From positions 62,001-126,000 of the forward strand of contig JAHCJV010000001.1 of NCBI GenBank assembly GCA_026126105.1: 64,000 bases of DNA, written 5' to 3'. Below the pieces are notes generated by a model. It saw nothing but the letters and a program-made list of their open reading frames with translations. It was not told where the DNA came from and ran no database searches. The position numbers and the translations under genes are program-made. Position 1 is the first letter of the stretch. Every line of letters starts with the position of its first letter. Positions 1,214 through 64,000 of the stretch are shown here, in pieces. The stretch comes from Enhydrobacter sp. (GTDB lineage: Bacteria > Pseudomonadota > Alphaproteobacteria > Reyranellales > Reyranellaceae).

Positions 1214-3121
1214 TCAAGCAACTCTGCGCCGGACGAAGCGCAGCAGTGACACCAGTGCCGCCGGTGTCACACCCGAGATCCGGGCCGCCTGGCCGAGCGT
1301 CCCCGGACTATGGGCCTTGAGCTTTTGGCGGATTTCCGTGCTCAATCCTCCGATCTCCGAATAGTCGAGGTCAGCAGGCAACGCCAACGCCTCGTCTCGG
1401 CGATAGGCGACGATGTCCCGACGTTGACGACCCAAGTAACCTTCGTAGCGGGCATCTATCGTCAACTGTTCGGCAATTTGGTCTGGCACCGAGCCAAGTT
1501 CAGGCCATAGATCGACCAAGCGGGGCCAGTCGACATCAGGGTACGCCAACAAGTCCATAGCCGAGCGAACGACACCATCCTGGTTGATCGCAACGCCCCG
1601 CTTCGCCAAGGCCGAAGGGCTGGCCCGGAGATCGAGCATAAGAGCTCGACCACGCTCCAACGCTTTATGTTTCACGTGAAACATCGTGGCCCTCTCCGCA
1701 CCCACGCAGCCACATGCCAACCCTTTCGGCGTCAGACGCTGGTCCGCATTGTCGGCGCGCAACCACAAACGGTACTCCGCTCGCGAGGTGAACATCCGGT
1801 AAGGCTCAGTCACTCCGAGCGTGACCAGATCGTCGATTAAGACCCCCACATAGCCATCAGCCCGGTCGACTTGGAACGGCGGTGAGCCAGCGGCGGCAAG
1901 CGCCGCGTTGAGCCCCGCGACCAGGCCCTGCGCTGCAGCCTCCTCATAACCGGTCGTCCCATTGATCTGGCCGGCCATATACAAGCCCGGTATCCTACGG
2001 GTTTCCAAGGTCGCATAAAGCTCTCGGGGATCTATGTGGTCGTACTCGATTGCGTAACCCGGCCGAAACATGGTCGCGCGCTCCAGCCCAGGAATGGTGC
2101 GAAGCAATTCGACTTGGATTTCACGCGGCAATGACGTGGAGATTCCGTTGGGATAGACCGTCGGATCGTCCAACCCTTCGGGTTCGAGAAAAATCTGGTG
2201 GCGCTGGCGATGGGCAAACCGGACGACCTTGTCCTCGATCGACGGACAGTATCGGGGGCCAACGCTTTCGATCTGGCCGGAATACATCGGCGCAAGATGG
2301 AGGTTGGCCCGGATGATCTCGTGGGTCGCCGTCGTCGTCTCGGTAATATGACAGGCGATTTGAGGACTGACGATCTCACGGGTCATATAAGAGAAGGGCT
2401 GCGGCGGCGCATCGCCGTCCTGCCGCTGCAAGGAACCGTAATCGATCGTGCGCCCATCGAGGCGAGGGGGTGTTCCGGTCTTCAGCCTTCCCATGACAAA
2501 GCCCGCCGCCTGCAATCGCCGGGCAAGCGCCCGGGACGGAGGCTCGACGGTACTTGCAGAGAGATCCCAAGGCGGGCCGCCCTGTTGTCCACATGCGCGG
2601 CCAGCCGGGATCTTCTCCTCTCCAACATGGATCAATCCGCGCAGGAATGTCCCGGTGGTCAGCACGACACGGCCGGCACCGAACTCTTCCCCATCGTCCG
2701 TGCGGACGCCGATGCAGGTACCACTCGAATCGACGATAAGATCGGCGACGGGCTTCGCGCGTACCTCGAGGTTCGCTTGCTCGGCGAGCAGAGACTGCAT
2801 GGCTTTCCGATAAAGCATGCGATCTGCTTGGGCGCGGGGCCCGCGAACCGCCGGCCCCTTCGAAAGGTTGAGCATCCGGAACTGGATGCCGGCCTGATCG
2901 ATTGCCCGCGCCATCACGCCATCGAGCGCATCGATTTCGCGCACCAGATGGCCTTTACCCAACCCGCCGATCGCTGGATTGCAGGACATTTCCCCGATCG
3001 TGTCGAGCCGATGAGTAAGCAATAGCGTCCGCGCGCCAAGCCGAGCTGAAGCCGCCGCCGCTTCACAGCCGGCGTGTCCACCACCCACCACGATGACATC
3101 GTAACGAAAAACTGTGCGCAT
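1214..3121 (-). CDS. mnmG: tRNA uridine 5-carboxymethylaminomethyl modification enzyme MnmG (GidA)
   Basis: FAD-dependent partner of MnmE that installs the cmnm5 group on wobble uridine 34 of certain tRNAs. The 635-residue length is normal. The N-terminus carries the dinucleotide-binding motif [12 protein letters not shown] at about residues 11-22, and the family signature [12 protein letters not shown] sits mid-protein. A second parS palindrome encodes the string MFHVKH in the C-terminal third. It heads mnmG-rsmG-parA. The usual neighbour mnmE is about 5.8 kb away, beyond ku-ligD-katE. In the 98-bp gap upstream a TTGACC hexamer on the minus strand could be a -35 box, but no good -10 follows. 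Confidence 0.97.
1667..1684. promoter_or_regulatory. parS: parS centromere site 2 (inside mnmG)
   Basis: Second perfect copy of ATGTTTCACGTGAAACAT, read on the minus strand as codons for Met-Phe-His-Val-Lys-His of MnmG. It lies 532 bp from the first copy. Two exact 18-bp palindromes so close together are strong evidence for a functional parS cluster. Confidence 0.93.
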
Positions 3122-3219: not shown

Positions 3220-4104
3220 TCAAGCGGCGCGCCTTGGGGACGGCTTCCTTTTCGCCTTCGCCGCGCCCTTCGGTGCAGCCAAGAAACGCTCGGCCTTCGC
3301 CCGCGCCGCGCCATTGCCCTTCAAACTGTCTCGCAGGGCCGCCATCAGGTCCACGATCTTCTCGTCTTTCTGATCGGGCTCCTCAGCCGTGACAGGCTGC
3401 CCCTTCTTCTTTCGGGCGATGAGCTCGCGCAGGGCCTCCTCGTAGCGGTCCTTGAACCGGGTAGGATCGAACGCCGCCTCCTGCTGGGCGATGATCTTCT
3501 CGGCGATGTCCAGCATACCCGCTTCGGGCTTCGGCAGATGACGGTCGAAGATGCCGGCACTGCTTCGAATCTCATCGTGGCTCCGCAGCGTGGTGAGCAA
3601 AATTCCCCCATCTCGCGGCTCAAGCGCGCACGGGTGTTCGCGCTGATGCAACACGAGTCGTCCCAATGCAACCTTGCCCTGCTTCTTCATTGCTGCCTGG
3701 ATCACCGCGAAAGCTTCGATGCCGGTCTTGCCGGCCGGAGCAAGGTAGTAGGGTTGGTCCCAATAGATGCGATCGATGGCATCCGCGTCGACGAACTCCT
3801 GAATGTCGATGATCCGCGTCGACTCGAGCTTCACCGCATTCAGTTCGTCCTTGTCGAGCAGTATGTACTTATTCTTGGATACTTCATATCCCTTCACAAG
3901 GTCCGCGCGATCGACGGCGCGGCCGGTAACCGCATCGACCGTCTGCATCCGGATGCGATTCTTGGTTTTGGGATTGATAAGATTGAAATGAACGTCCGCC
4001 GCACGCTCCGTCGCCGTATAGAGCGCCACTGGGCACGTCACGAGGGACAACCGTAGATGGCCCTCCCACGTGGGGCGCATCGCCTTGCGTTGTGCCTTGG
4101 CCAT
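3220..4104 (-). CDS. ku: Non-homologous end joining protein Ku
   Basis: Bacterial Ku forms a homodimeric ring on DNA double-strand ends and recruits LigD. The protein has 294 residues, within the usual 260-300 range. It begins RPTWEGHLRLSLVTCPV and contains the core string IYWDQPYYLAP, both typical of the Ku beta-barrel family. The C-terminus is a Lys/Arg/Ala-rich tail (about the last 30 residues), as in extended bacterial Ku proteins where the tail binds DNA. The start ATG is 7 nt beyond the ligD stop, so it is the last gene of katE-ligD-ku. Confidence 0.95.
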   Translation of the reverse strand: MAKAQRKAMRPTWEGHLRLSLVTCPVALYTATERAADVHFNLINPKTKNRIRMQTVDAVTGRAVDRADLVKGYEVSKNKYILLDKDELNAVKLESTRIIDIQEFVDADAIDRIYWDQPYYLAPAGKTGIEAFAVIQAAMKKQGKVALGRLVLHQREHPCALEPRDGGILLTTLRSHDEIRSSAGIFDRHLPKPEAGMLDIAEKIIAQQEAAFDPTRFKDRYEEALRELIARKKKGQPVTAEEPDQKDEKIVDLMAALRDSLKGNGAARAKAERFLAAPKGAAKAKRKPSPRRAA

Positions 4105-59757: not shown

Positions 59758-61131
59758 CTATCCCCCTGAAACCGTGTTCATTGTCGTCATGCCGATCGCC
59801 GCCTTGGGCGTGCTGCCCGGCACGAGGATCTGTCCGTAGGTTCCGGGCGCGCGCCAGTGCAGTGTGCCAAAGGCGCCGCAGCTCTCGCACACCGGATGAT
59901 AGGCCTCGTGATGCGCGCCGCAGGCCGTGCAGCGCCAGGCCCTGTCTGCCGGGGCTTCGGCCGCACGCGCCAGCCAGTCGCGAACCTTGGTCTGGTCGGA
60001 GTCCGCCCGCTCCTCGAGTTCGGCCATCATCCGGCAAACGCGCACTGGCGGATTGTCGCCACCCGCCGCTTCGAGATGCCGCCGCGCCTCGCCCCACAGG
60101 CCGGCTTCGAGCGTCGCCCGGGCGAGCGCCAGATGGCTCTCCATATCGTCCGGCTTCTGCGCGACGAGCTTGCGCACAACGGACACCCGCTTAAGTGGAT
60201 CGGTTTCGCCCGACGCTCGCAGATAAAGCTCCGCAAGGTCGGGATGCGGCGTCAGCGACCAGCCACGCTCGATCGTCTTCAGGGCGCGCCGGGCTTCGCC
60301 CGACTTGACCTGCAGCTCGGCGAGCCGGGCCGCGGTGGCGATGCGCTCGGGGGCGAGGCCGAAGGCTTCGCGCGCAAGGCCCAGCGCTTCGTTGCCGTGG
60401 CCATCATGCTCGGCCGCTCGGCTGCGCTCGACGAGCAGCAGGGCGCGCAGCGTGCGGCCCCGGTCAGCGCTCACCACCTTGCGCCGCATGCCGGCGTCGA
60501 GGGTATCCTGCGCCGCCCGCCACTGCTGGAGCTGTGCCTGCATGTCGAACAGTGAATGCACGACCCACGGAGTCTGCGGCTTGAGCGCGAAGGCGCGCTC
60601 GGCATAATCGAGCGCCTGCGCCTGGTTGCCGTCGCGGAGCGCCTGGGCGATCAGTCCGCGCAGGCCGAGAAAGGCCATCTGCTCGTCCTCGAGCATCGCC
60701 TTGAAGGCGCGATTGGCGCCTTCGCGGTCGCCATTGAGCTGGGCGGCCTGGGCCGAGAGCAGAAGGGTGAGCGCGGGTTCGGAGAGCAGCTGCTCGGCCT
60801 TGCGCGCATGGCGCTGCGCTTCAACGCCGTCGCCGGCCGCAACGGCGGCAAGCCCCTGCGTCAGCTCGCGATAGCCGCGTCGCCGCCGGCTCTCGCCCCA
60901 GCCTTCGAGAAATGCCCCCGGCGCGCCGACGATCCAGCGGTAGAGCAGCCACAGCGCGACGCCGAGCAGGATGAGAAAAACGACGCCGACCAGCAGCACG
61001 CCGACGCTGGTGTCGAGCCGCCAGCCGCGCCACTCGACGACGACGTTGCCAGGCCGTTCGGCGAGCCACACCGCGCCCAGCATCGCGACAGCAGCGACGG
61101 CGAACCAGATCAGCGTACGCAACATTGTCAT
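59758..61131 (-). CDS. hemY: HemY-like TPR membrane protein with zinc-ribbon tail
   Basis: A 457-residue protein of the proteobacterial HemY family (not the Gram-positive oxidase of the same name). It has two N-terminal membrane helices (about 4-25 and 40-63), a TPR array (about 90-380), and a C-terminal cysteine knuckle CTACGAHHEAYHPVCESCG (about 395-413) that can bind zinc or iron. Its role in heme or envelope biology is unproven. It lies 6 nt after the hemD-Mic60 fusion. Confidence 0.9.
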   Translation of the reverse strand: MTMLRTLIWFAVAAVAMLGAVWLAERPGNVVVEWRGWRLDTSVGVLLVGVVFLILLGVALWLLYRWIVGAPGAFLEGWGESRRRRGYRELTQGLAAVAAGDGVEAQRHARKAEQLLSEPALTLLLSAQAAQLNGDREGANRAFKAMLEDEQMAFLGLRGLIAQALRDGNQAQALDYAERAFALKPQTPWVVHSLFDMQAQLQQWRAAQDTLDAGMRRKVVSADRGRTLRALLLVERSRAAEHDGHGNEALGLAREAFGLAPERIATAARLAELQVKSGEARRALKTIERGWSLTPHPDLAELYLRASGETDPLKRVSVVRKLVAQKPDDMESHLALARATLEAGLWGEARRHLEAAGGDNPPVRVCRMMAELEERADSDQTKVRDWLARAAEAPADRAWRCTACGAHHEAYHPVCESCGAFGTLHWRAPGTYGQILVPGSTPKAAIGMTTMNTVSGG

Positions 61132-61137
61132 GGCGGA

Positions 61138-63015
61138 CTACCGGGCGCTGCCCAGCTGCGAGACGCCCAGCGCCGCGAGCTGGTCGACCGCGCGCTGGGC
61201 GGAGAGATGCGCCTCCGCCCGGGCCAACCAGTCGGCGGTGGCGCGCGATGTCTCCGGTGGCAGCGATTTCACCAGTCCGACGGCGCCGGCAAGATCGCCC
61301 GCGTTGATCGCGGCTTCGGCGCGCGCGAGCTTCGCTTCGACCGAATCGCCCTGCACGTCGGCACCGGTGCGGCGCAACGAGACCAGCCTCTTCAGCCTGC
61401 CGAGGAGCCGCTGCCAGAAGGAATCGTCAGCGAGGTCGTCCGCGAGAGCCATCTTGGCCATCGCCGGAAACGATGCGGCAAGACTTGCCCGCGAGGCGAC
61501 GCCTTTCGCGGCCAAGGGCTGCAGCACCGCGATCGGCTCGCCGAGCTTGCTATCGCCCTGTGCCAGCGGAGTCAGCAGGCCGAGGTCGGTGGCGAAGGGC
61601 TGCCCGGCTGTCAGGCCTGCGCTGATGCGGGCGGCGATGGCTATCAAAGCCGAGCCGCGCGCGGCGGCAAGCGCCTTCTGTTCGCCCGTGGTGCTGGCGC
61701 TCGCTGCGGCGGCAGCCTTTTCTACAGAGGCCTTCTGGCCGGCGACCGCCTGATCCAGCGATTGCAGACCCGCGCGCAAGGCCACGATTTCGGATTTCAG
61801 GGCAGAGGTGTCGGATTCCGTGGCCGTAGGCCGACTTTCGAGGGCCTCCAGCTTGCGACGCAGTTCCTCGATCGCAGGATCCGGGCCTTCCTGCCGCTCA
61901 GCCGGCGGTCGCTGGGCCTGCGCGGCCGTCGACGCGATGGCACGCAGACGCGTGTCGAGATCGTCGAGGCGGGCGGAAAGGTCGCGCTTTGCCGCATCCA
62001 GGGCAGCGGTGTCCATGACGGGCGCGGCCGGCGGCGCGACAGGTTTAGGCGGCGAGGGTTGGGCAACGGCCGGGCCGCGCCACAAGGCGCGCGCCTCCTG
62101 CGGCCAATAAGGCAAGGAGACGAGTGCGGCCGCCAGCACCAGCACGGCGGCCAGCACCCCGATTGCGAAGGCGCCGATCACGCCCACTCCCCGGCGCGCG
62201 GGCGCCGCAGGGGGCACGGCTGCGGAAGCGACGGCGCGCTCGACCGGTTCGGGGGGCGGCGAAGAGGCGGGAATATCGGTCATGAGGGTGGAGCTTTCTA
62301 CGCCGGACGGGGGTAGCCGGTCGATCTCATCCAGCACGGACTGCCGGGTGGGACGCTCTGCCGCGATGGTCCTGGCGAAGGGCAGTGCGGCGAGCGGCTC
62401 CGCGGCGGCGGGACTGATGGCGACAGCGGTGACGCCGCGGCAGGTATCGACAAGGTTCGCCTGCGTGGCGAGCCGGACGAATGCATCCGAGGCGCGCGGC
62501 GAGAAGAAGGTCGCCACATCGAGGGCGCGGGCTTCCAGCGCGGCGCGTGCCGAGTCCGGCAGTGCATCGGCTTCGCGCGCCTCGTAGAGCACGACGCGCC
62601 TGGTTTCGAAACCCTCCGGCGTCAGGTCGCCCGCAATGTCCGAGCCGCTGACATGAAGAAGCGGGCCGTTCGCCGGATCGAGCCGTTGGCGCACGAGGTC
62701 GGACAGGGAGGCCGCGTCGCCCGACGCCGAGGTGACGGCGCCGAAGCCCAGCCCTTCCGCCGTCGCAGCGGTCGTGTCGCCGACTGCGAAGATCGGCTTG
62801 CTGCGCTGCTCGCTCGCTTCGGCCAGGGCGCGGGCGCCATTGGCGCTGGTGATCAGTACGGCCTGACAGTCCGCAAGCGACGCAGGGAAGTCGGCTGGTG
62901 GATGCAGCATCTGCAGCCGGAACAGCGGTGCGATGACGGGCGAATGGCCGCGCAAGGTCAGCGCCTGGGCCAGCGCCGTCGCTTCGCGTTCCGGACGGGT
63001 GATCAGCACGCGCAT
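61138..63015 (-). CDS. hemD: Fusion of uroporphyrinogen-III synthase (HemD) and a Mic60/mitofilin-like protein
   Basis: A single 625-codon frame without a stop. Residues 1-235 are HemD: MRVLITRPEREATALAQAL, QAVLITSANGARAL, and the FFSPRASDAFVRLA block. A Pro/Ala-rich linker leads to a membrane helix (VGVIGAFAIGVLAAVLVLAAALV in outline, about 275-297), coiled coil (about 335-440), and the C-terminal region with VEAKLARAEAAINAGDLAGAV typical of alphaproteobacterial Mic60/mitofilin homologues. An internal ATG near residue 244 has no Shine-Dalgarno. hemC is not adjacent. Confidence 0.88.
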   Translation of the reverse strand: MRVLITRPEREATALAQALTLRGHSPVIAPLFRLQMLHPPADFPASLADCQAVLITSANGARALAEASEQRSKPIFAVGDTTAATAEGLGFGAVTSASGDAASLSDLVRQRLDPANGPLLHVSGSDIAGDLTPEGFETRRVVLYEAREADALPDSARAALEARALDVATFFSPRASDAFVRLATQANLVDTCRGVTAVAISPAAAEPLAALPFARTIAAERPTRQSVLDEIDRLPPSGVESSTLMTDIPASSPPPEPVERAVASAAVPPAAPARRGVGVIGAFAIGVLAAVLVLAAALVSLPYWPQEARALWRGPAVAQPSPPKPVAPPAAPVMDTAALDAAKRDLSARLDDLDTRLRAIASTAAQAQRPPAERQEGPDPAIEELRRKLEALESRPTATESDTSALKSEIVALRAGLQSLDQAVAGQKASVEKAAAAASASTTGEQKALAAARGSALIAIAARISAGLTAGQPFATDLGLLTPLAQGDSKLGEPIAVLQPLAAKGVASRASLAASFPAMAKMALADDLADDSFWQRLLGRLKRLVSLRRTGADVQGDSVEAKLARAEAAINAGDLAGAVGLVKSLPPETSRATADWLARAEAHLSAQRAVDQLAALGVSQLGSAR

Positions 63016-63087: not shown

Positions 63088-63552
63088 CTAGAGCAGAACG
63101 ACGCCTTCCAGCGCCAGCAGCTTGCGCTTGGTTGGCAGGCCTTGGCCGCCGGAGAAGCCGCCTTCCCTGCCGCCGCTTCCCAGCACGCGATGGCATGGAA
63201 CGATGATCGGGAGGGGATTGCGGCCGCACGCCATGCCGACCGCGCGCGGGCCCGAGCCCAGTGCCATCGCCATGCCGCCGTAGGTCGCGGTCCCGCCGTA
63301 AGGGATTTCACGCATCATGTTCCAGACGCTCTTCTGGAAGTCGGTACCGCGGCCGGCGAGCGGCAGGTCGAAGCTCCTGAGCCGGCCCGCGAAGTAACGC
63401 TCGAGCTGGCGGCGGGCTTCCTCGAGGACAGGCGACGACTTGTCCGAGGTCGCCTCGCCGTTGCTTGCCCACCGCACGCCGGTCAGCGCCTCGCCGTCTG
63501 CCTCCAGCGCCAGCCGGCCGACCGGGCTCGCCATATAACAACAAAACGTCAT
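63088..63552 (-). CDS. ogt: Methylated-DNA--protein-cysteine methyltransferase (Ogt type)
   Basis: Suicide repair enzyme for O6-alkylguanine. The ATG at 63552 gives 154 residues beginning with TFCCYMASPVGRLALEADG, and the active site IIVPCHRVLGSGG is complete. FQKSVWNMMREIPYGGTATYGG is the DNA-binding helix-turn-helix. The open frame extends upstream to 63732, but that part overlaps the divergent hydrolase gene and has no homology. It is followed 72 bp on by hemD. Confidence 0.93.
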   Translation of the reverse strand: MTFCCYMASPVGRLALEADGEALTGVRWASNGEATSDKSSPVLEEARRQLERYFAGRLRSFDLPLAGRGTDFQKSVWNMMREIPYGGTATYGGMAMALGSGPRAVGMACGRNPLPIIVPCHRVLGSGGREGGFSGGQGLPTKRKLLALEGVVLL

Positions 63553-63597
63553 GCCGCGAGCGTAGCCTTCGCCTCGCGCCTTTGCCAACATGCGGTC

Positions 63598-64000
63598 ATG
63601 AAGAGGGGGAGAATGAGGCGGCGTACCCTGCTGGCGGCTGCGGCTGCATTCTGGCCGGCGGGGGTGGTCGCCCAACCGCAGCGCCGTCAGGCATCCGAGC
63701 CGGGCTTGCCGCCACCCGTGGTGTTCGTGCACGGCAACGGCGATTCGAGCGCTCTATGGATAAACAACATCTGGCGTTTCGAAGCCAACGGCTACAAGCG
63801 CAGCCAGCTCTTCGCCATCGATTTCACCAATCCGGTGGCGCTCAGTGACGACTCCAAGATGCAACCGTTCCGCTCGTCCACGGCCGAGGCGATGACCGAG
63901 CTGGCGGCGTTCGTGGCGCAGGTGAAGAAGGAGACGCGTCGCCGAAAGGTCGCGCTGATCGCGTCCTCGCGTGGCGGCAATACGGTACGCAACTACCTCA
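63598..64000 (+). CDS. Exported lipase-like alpha/beta hydrolase (3' end outside window)
   Basis: The N-terminal 134 residues of an exported hydrolase. A twin-arginine-like or Sec signal (RRRTLLAAAAAFWPAGVVA) is followed by PPPVVFVHGNGDSSALW, the oxyanion strand, and ALIASSRGGNTVRNYL, a nucleophile elbow with Ala in place of the first Gly of GxSxG. An ATG at 63613 with GGGGAGA just upstream may be the real start. The frame is open to the window end. Family: class 2 lipase/PGAP1-like (inferred). Confidence 0.8.
   Translation, partial: MKRGRMRRRTLLAAAAAFWPAGVVAQPQRRQASEPGLPPPVVFVHGNGDSSALWINNIWRFEANGYKRSQLFAIDFTNPVALSDDSKMQPFRSSTAEAMTELAAFVAQVKKETRRRKVALIASSRGGNTVRNYL

Follow-up and report, generated by a model that had tools for sequence, protein, structure and literature searches.

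An open reading frame of 625 codons in the DNA analysed here (a stretch of 64,000 nucleotides from Enhydrobacter sp., hereafter the window) joins a HemD (uroporphyrinogen-III synthase) domain to a Mic60/mitofilin-like membrane protein, and all 67 Reyranellaceae loci at which the junction could be checked, spread over five genera, carry the same fusion. As the overall model, to which we assign a probability of about 0.72 on the basis of comparative sequence evidence, we propose that the frame would encode a membrane-tethered HemD-Mic60 protein and that most of the family would make free Mic60 as well. In this model, cytoplasmic HemD would convert hydroxymethylbilane to uroporphyrinogen III while anchored at the inner membrane through the Mic60 helix, with the Mic60 coiled coil and mitofilin domain in the periplasm. 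Most members of the family would still carry the original ribosome-binding site and start codon of mic60 in frame and would produce free Mic60 too, so that Mic60 could outnumber HemD; in the window's clade, in which the internal site has decayed, mainly the fusion would be made. A sequence-only reading of the window had already recognised the single 625-codon frame, and the PF02602 and PF09731 matches described below bear it out; likewise, the Pro/Ala linker and the one membrane helix that it named are found in the sequence and, for the helix, in an AlphaFold model. The position that it gave for the frame (61138-63015) stands, and the frame lies on the minus strand, with its start codon at 63015-63013 and its stop at 61140-61138. 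The features are as follows.

61138..63015, minus strand: fused hemD-mic60 open reading frame, 625 aa (reading frame and domain scans; joined in all 67 checkable Reyranellaceae loci)
62335..62976, minus strand: HemD (uroporphyrinogen-III synthase) domain, residues 14-227 (PF02602; predicted fold; T82 and Y144 kept)
62185..62334, minus strand: Pro/Ala-rich linker, residues 228-277, differing between loci in both length and sequence (sequence, family comparison)
62281..62283, minus strand: internal ATG, Met245, putative ancestral Mic60 start (M-[S/T]-[D/E] in 67/67; starts of free Mic60 in outgroups)
62293..62301, minus strand: GTAGAAAGC, decayed counterpart of the relatives' GTA-NAA-GGA Shine-Dalgarno site (dG -0.4 versus a family mean of -5.7)
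62119..62184, minus strand: membrane helix, residues 278-299, with Arg-Arg just before it (model helix and sequence; orientation inferred)
61606..62010, minus strand: coiled-coil region, residues about 336-470 (modelled as long helices; weak matches to coiled-coil families)
61174..61653, minus strand: mitofilin domain, residues 455-614 (PF09731; 7PV1)
59758..61131, minus strand: hemY-type gene, HemY_N plus TPR (starts 6 nt past the fused-gene stop; PF07219, E 3.2e-28; TIGR00540)
63088..63732, minus strand: 6-O-methylguanine-DNA methyltransferase gene, directly upstream, where hemC is not found (PF01035, E 6.2e-29)

The case for a second product comes from the linker, which is unalignable across the family apart from the motif M-[S/T]-[D/E]; this motif occurs in 67/67 family loci, about 11 to 30 residues past the HemD core, and the free Mic60 of several outgroups opens likewise. 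In the window the methionine is residue 245 (62283-62281), so that the internal ATG of the sequence-only reading exists, one residue beyond the approximate position (near 244) that had been given for it. In 44 genus members the internal methionine is preceded by x-[Q/E/K]-G, encoded as GTA-NAA-GGA, and several codons are frozen when compared with how these genes use codons in general, a yardstick that has to be read with the relatedness of the species in mind, the counts not being independent events: GGA is found in 43/44 members, in each of the 43 exactly three codons before the ATG, compared with 6.6% of the Gly codons in these genes; the NAA codon is CAA in 20/20 (usage 14%), AAA in 6/6 (8%) and GAA in 18/18 cases (35%); and the Ser codon right after the internal ATG is AGY in 57/57 cases versus a usage of 34%. 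Pairing of the internal site with the 16S tail averages -5.7 kcal/mol versus -2.7 at control positions, with 54 of 67 loci at or below -5, and the internal Shine-Dalgarno site is about as strong as that of the hemD start (-5.8 versus -6.7). These patterns indicate that the constraint upstream of the internal ATG acts on nucleotides and not on amino acids alone, and translation starting at this ATG accounts for it best. As both the methionine and the Shine-Dalgarno site are conserved in most relatives, a separate Mic60 is probably made there besides the fusion, and most relatives should make two products, HemD-Mic60 and free Mic60, from one frame.

The same letters suggest how the genes came to be joined. 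The fusion probably arose by loss of a hemD stop codon next to the downstream Shine-Dalgarno site of mic60, a stop that would have overlapped this site, because NAA-GGA occupies the place of a TAA-GGA overlap. The base N of NAA is C, G or A and never T, and since it changes only about four times on the tree, the absence of T is weak evidence. The GTA ahead of NAA-GGA (62299-62301 in the window) is frozen as well (38/40 Val codons versus a usage of 4.6%) and lies outside the Shine-Dalgarno pairing.

In the clade that unites the window with L002, L003, L031 and L039 (support 99) GGA has been replaced by AGC, and the window itself has the weakest internal site of all (dG -0.4), the ATG being kept. 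With the Shine-Dalgarno site decayed, this clade probably makes mainly the fusion, which in the window's genome is probably the main product if not the only one. A start at the internal ATG, which the sequence-only reading had counted against a fusion, is thus likely in most relatives, where the methionine is conserved behind a Shine-Dalgarno site, and sits behind a decayed site here. Of the 30 fusions from other families, 17 show an ATG behind a good site no more than 40 codons from the HemD end, compared with 41 of 414 control windows, and alternative starts are found in L121 and L139 (TTG behind GAGGAGG or AAGGAGG) and in L115 (GTG behind AAGGAG). By contrast, the fusions L123, L128 and L138 have no usable internal start near the HemD end, so that the fusion alone must serve there and internal initiation would not be needed in every lineage.

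These three linkers and the decay of the site in the window's clade are what one would expect if the two parts worked solely as one protein and the internal methionine and the Shine-Dalgarno-like letters were relics. We consider such a fusion-only protein unlikely, on the basis that GTA-NAA-GGA and ATG-A are frozen at the nucleotide level in an otherwise unalignable linker, among proteins of the genus that share no more than about 62-80% identity with the window's. Alternatively, HemD and Mic60 could be functionally two proteins, the fusion being cut in the linker and the joint frame ensuring equal co-expression of both. The Pro/Ala linker is indeed variable and likely exposed, and the fused or split state flips within families (see below); against this, the linker showed no conserved cleavage motif, its only strictly conserved element being the start region, and we give cleavage a low probability. 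Under the preferred model of a tethered fusion with additional free Mic60 in most of the family, the sequence itself would imply that HemD is tethered to the membrane, provided that the protein stays uncut.

Several lines of evidence support a complete HemD domain in the N-terminal half. First, HEM4 (PF02602) matches residues 14-227 with an E-value of 3.8e-34 and 118.2 bits (cut-off 27.5), covering positions 2-229 of the 231 in the profile. Second, the HemD half matched the human uroporphyrinogen-III synthase 1JR2 (E 0.003) in a sequence search of solved structures, and its predicted fold in the AlphaFold model superimposes on the solved structures 3re1 and 3mw8 with a Z-score of 13.6 over about 144 residues, the first half of the domain being clear in the model and the second half poorly modelled. 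Third, T82 is kept in 66/66 family loci and Y144 in 67/67, and in the alignment with 1JR2 both have counterparts in the human enzyme; we take these two positions to belong to the HemD active region. The protein resembles HemD (PF02602; 3re1, 1jr2) in having the complete domain with catalytic-region positions kept, and differs in that a membrane protein is linked to HemD. None of the Reyranellaceae genomes examined, the window's included, has a further HEM4 gene above the cut-off, and a second, free HemD in this genome was rejected on this ground. Because there is no stop between HemD and Mic60 either, all HemD molecules encoded by the genome must be made as the HemD-Mic60 fusion and would be free only if cut, and the fused HemD, as the sole HEM4 gene above the cut-off, is expected to have uroporphyrinogen-III synthase activity.

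The C-terminal half was assigned to Mic60 from profile matches and layout. When the whole fused protein is scanned, mitofilin (PF09731) matches residues 455-614 with 26.8 bits, just below the cut-off of 27.4 (E 3.2e-6); when the C-terminal 382 aa are scanned alone, the match reaches 33.1 bits and exceeds this cut-off (E 4.1e-8), so that the mitofilin match on which the sequence-only reading had made its fusion depend is present. Mitofilin is also matched at E 0.01 by 14/16 relatives, and the Mic60-Mic19 construct 7PV1 is found at E 0.002 by sequence and at 4e-9 with a profile of the Mic60 parts. The layout is that of Mic60, an N-terminal helix (278-299) followed by long helices (336-470), as judged from sequence and from a model of low confidence around the membrane helix. 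The AlphaFold model derives from a shallow alignment (mean pLDDT 62, pTM 0.33), and a fold search with the full-length model gave no clear solved match for the mitofilin part, which says little at a pLDDT of 62. We infer that HemD is cytoplasmic and the mitofilin domain periplasmic, because Arg-Arg precedes the helix and the substrate of HemD is cytoplasmic.

The nearest precedent is the HemD-HemX fusion (NCBIfam NF005411, PRK06975), in which HemD likewise forms the N-terminus and continues into a membrane protein with one helix and a coiled coil; when encoded separately, this membrane protein has its gene next to hemD and before hemY. The C-terminal part of that fusion is HemX, whereas here it is mitofilin/Mic60. 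As it shares the gene order and resembles that fusion in layout (a helix and a coiled coil), the window's gene could in principle be this known fusion with a HemX-type C-terminal half, which we regard as very improbable and have set aside: NF005411 is absent among the matches of the window's protein up to an E-value of 1, which places the protein outside that family, PF04375 matches neither the fused protein nor anything else across the genome, profile comparison with HemX yields a probability of 3%, and the relatives match mitofilin as described above. L107, a HemX-bearing frame of 622 aa, was also rejected as a HemD-HemX fusion, HemD there lying in another frame. The other close relative is the separate Mic60 of alphaproteobacteria (PMC7641849), which shares the mitofilin domain, the membrane helix and the position after hemD and before hemY, and from which the fusion differs in that the hemD stop is absent, HemD is attached and the old Mic60 start lies in frame. 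The gene order hemC-hemD-mitofilin-hemY has been described in alphaproteobacteria (PMC7641849), in agreement with the sequence-only reading, which had named hemD, a mic60-like gene and hemY as neighbours in many of them.

HemY had also been placed just downstream in the window, and a gene does begin 6 nt after the stop. It encodes a HemY_N/TPR membrane protein (PF07219, 98.4 bits, above the cut-off of 31, with TIGR00540 at 117.5 bits, under its cut-off of 142) and not the oxidase that also bears the name HemY, a distinct protein. An open frame of 586 aa runs antisense to the fused gene (window 60556-62316, plus strand) and looks like a GC-rich shadow frame, no gene.

The joined frame is shared throughout Reyranellaceae, as the sequence-only reading had proposed to check in sister genomes. 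Within the genus, 62 of 65 genomes match; 59 of them have the frame joined across the junction, and three are truncated by contig ends. Eight genomes of four further Reyranellaceae genera are fused too, so that no split hemD/mic60 locus occurs among the 67 checkable loci, fused and split states being called from the DNA, stops included. Moreover, between the HemD end and the internal methionine the fused frame has no stop in 974 codons, compared with 35 and 10 stops in the other two frames. These counts confirm that the joined frame in the window is real, far beyond chance. A sequencing or assembly error that deleted a stop or shifted the frame between two overlapping genes is practically negligible as an explanation: closely spaced hemD and mic60 are normal in Alphaproteobacteria, and in several split outgroups the two share a reading frame and are separated by one stop and a short gap, but a base error at the junction is ruled out by the recurrence of the joined frame in 67 loci from different species, with 76-80% identity to the window's protein in the nearest relatives and about 62-80% over the genus. 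In two Reyranella drafts, L021 (G019) and L022 (G021), the Mic60 part carries a frameshift or TAG downstream of the junction, either a draft error or a real loss.

The fusion also occurs elsewhere in the class. The two genes are split in L083, from the one other family sampled in the order, as they are in the first class-level outgroups. A class-wide HEM4 search of 385 genomes returned frames of at least 500 aa in about 54 of some 150 listed genomes (counted by hand), and 30 of 40 loci inspected from other alphaproteobacterial families, from more than 20 family codes, are true HemD-Mic60 fusions, a proportion that gives no estimate of prevalence, as the 40 loci were mostly picked for long frames. 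In a phylum sample, HEM4 frames of at least 500 aa were rare outside the class, with two among the matches listed. Both states occur within one family (f22 has L123 and L140 fused and L149 split), and on the HemD tree the fused or split state changes about 13 times, at least four changes being forced by well-supported branches. This distribution indicates that the HemD-Mic60 fusion has repeatedly been gained or lost in Alphaproteobacteria and is not peculiar to this genome. Contig C1 of G106 has three HEM4 matches of identical score, at 1969-2613 (minus), 3231-3875 (plus) and 4596567-4597211 (plus), near both contig ends and with two forming an inverted pair, possibly a contig-end assembly artefact.

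Taken together, the recurrence of natural fusions and the conservation of a second start in frame suggest that HemD and Mic60 gain from being together and that Mic60 is also needed alone. We know of no accepted explanation for mic60 lying among heme genes in alphaproteobacteria; a plausible, unproven hypothesis is that HemD-Mic60 helps to coordinate membrane shape and heme supply. Membrane bending and a role at membrane junctions have been reported for other alphaproteobacterial Mic60 proteins, and bacterial Mic60 function has been reviewed (PMC12136173). In a reading that we hold to be somewhat less likely than not, one frame may give two proteins in a ratio set by an internal Shine-Dalgarno site, kept by selection in most lineages and dropped in others, and may physically couple a step of heme synthesis to a membrane-shaping protein inherited by mitochondria. 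The HemD-Mic60 fusion was not found described in the literature searched, outside which lie the main Mic60 papers of 2015, 2016 and 2023, and among the papers in that search naming hemD or uroporphyrinogen together with Mic60 or mitofilin, the gene-order paper (PMC7641849) alone was relevant.

Some fusions from other families carry an additional element, a carph-isopro domain (NF046037) between HemD and the membrane helix, as in L111, L112 and L142 (family f109), L122 and L148 (f127) and L131 (f101). NF046037 scored over its cut-off in all three proteins scanned (L112, L131 and L148), with weak matches to YdaS/Cro helix-turn-helix families, and a stretch similar to the carph-isopro region opens the split Mic60 of L089; the region is a possible candidate for a DNA-binding module on a Mic60 protein.
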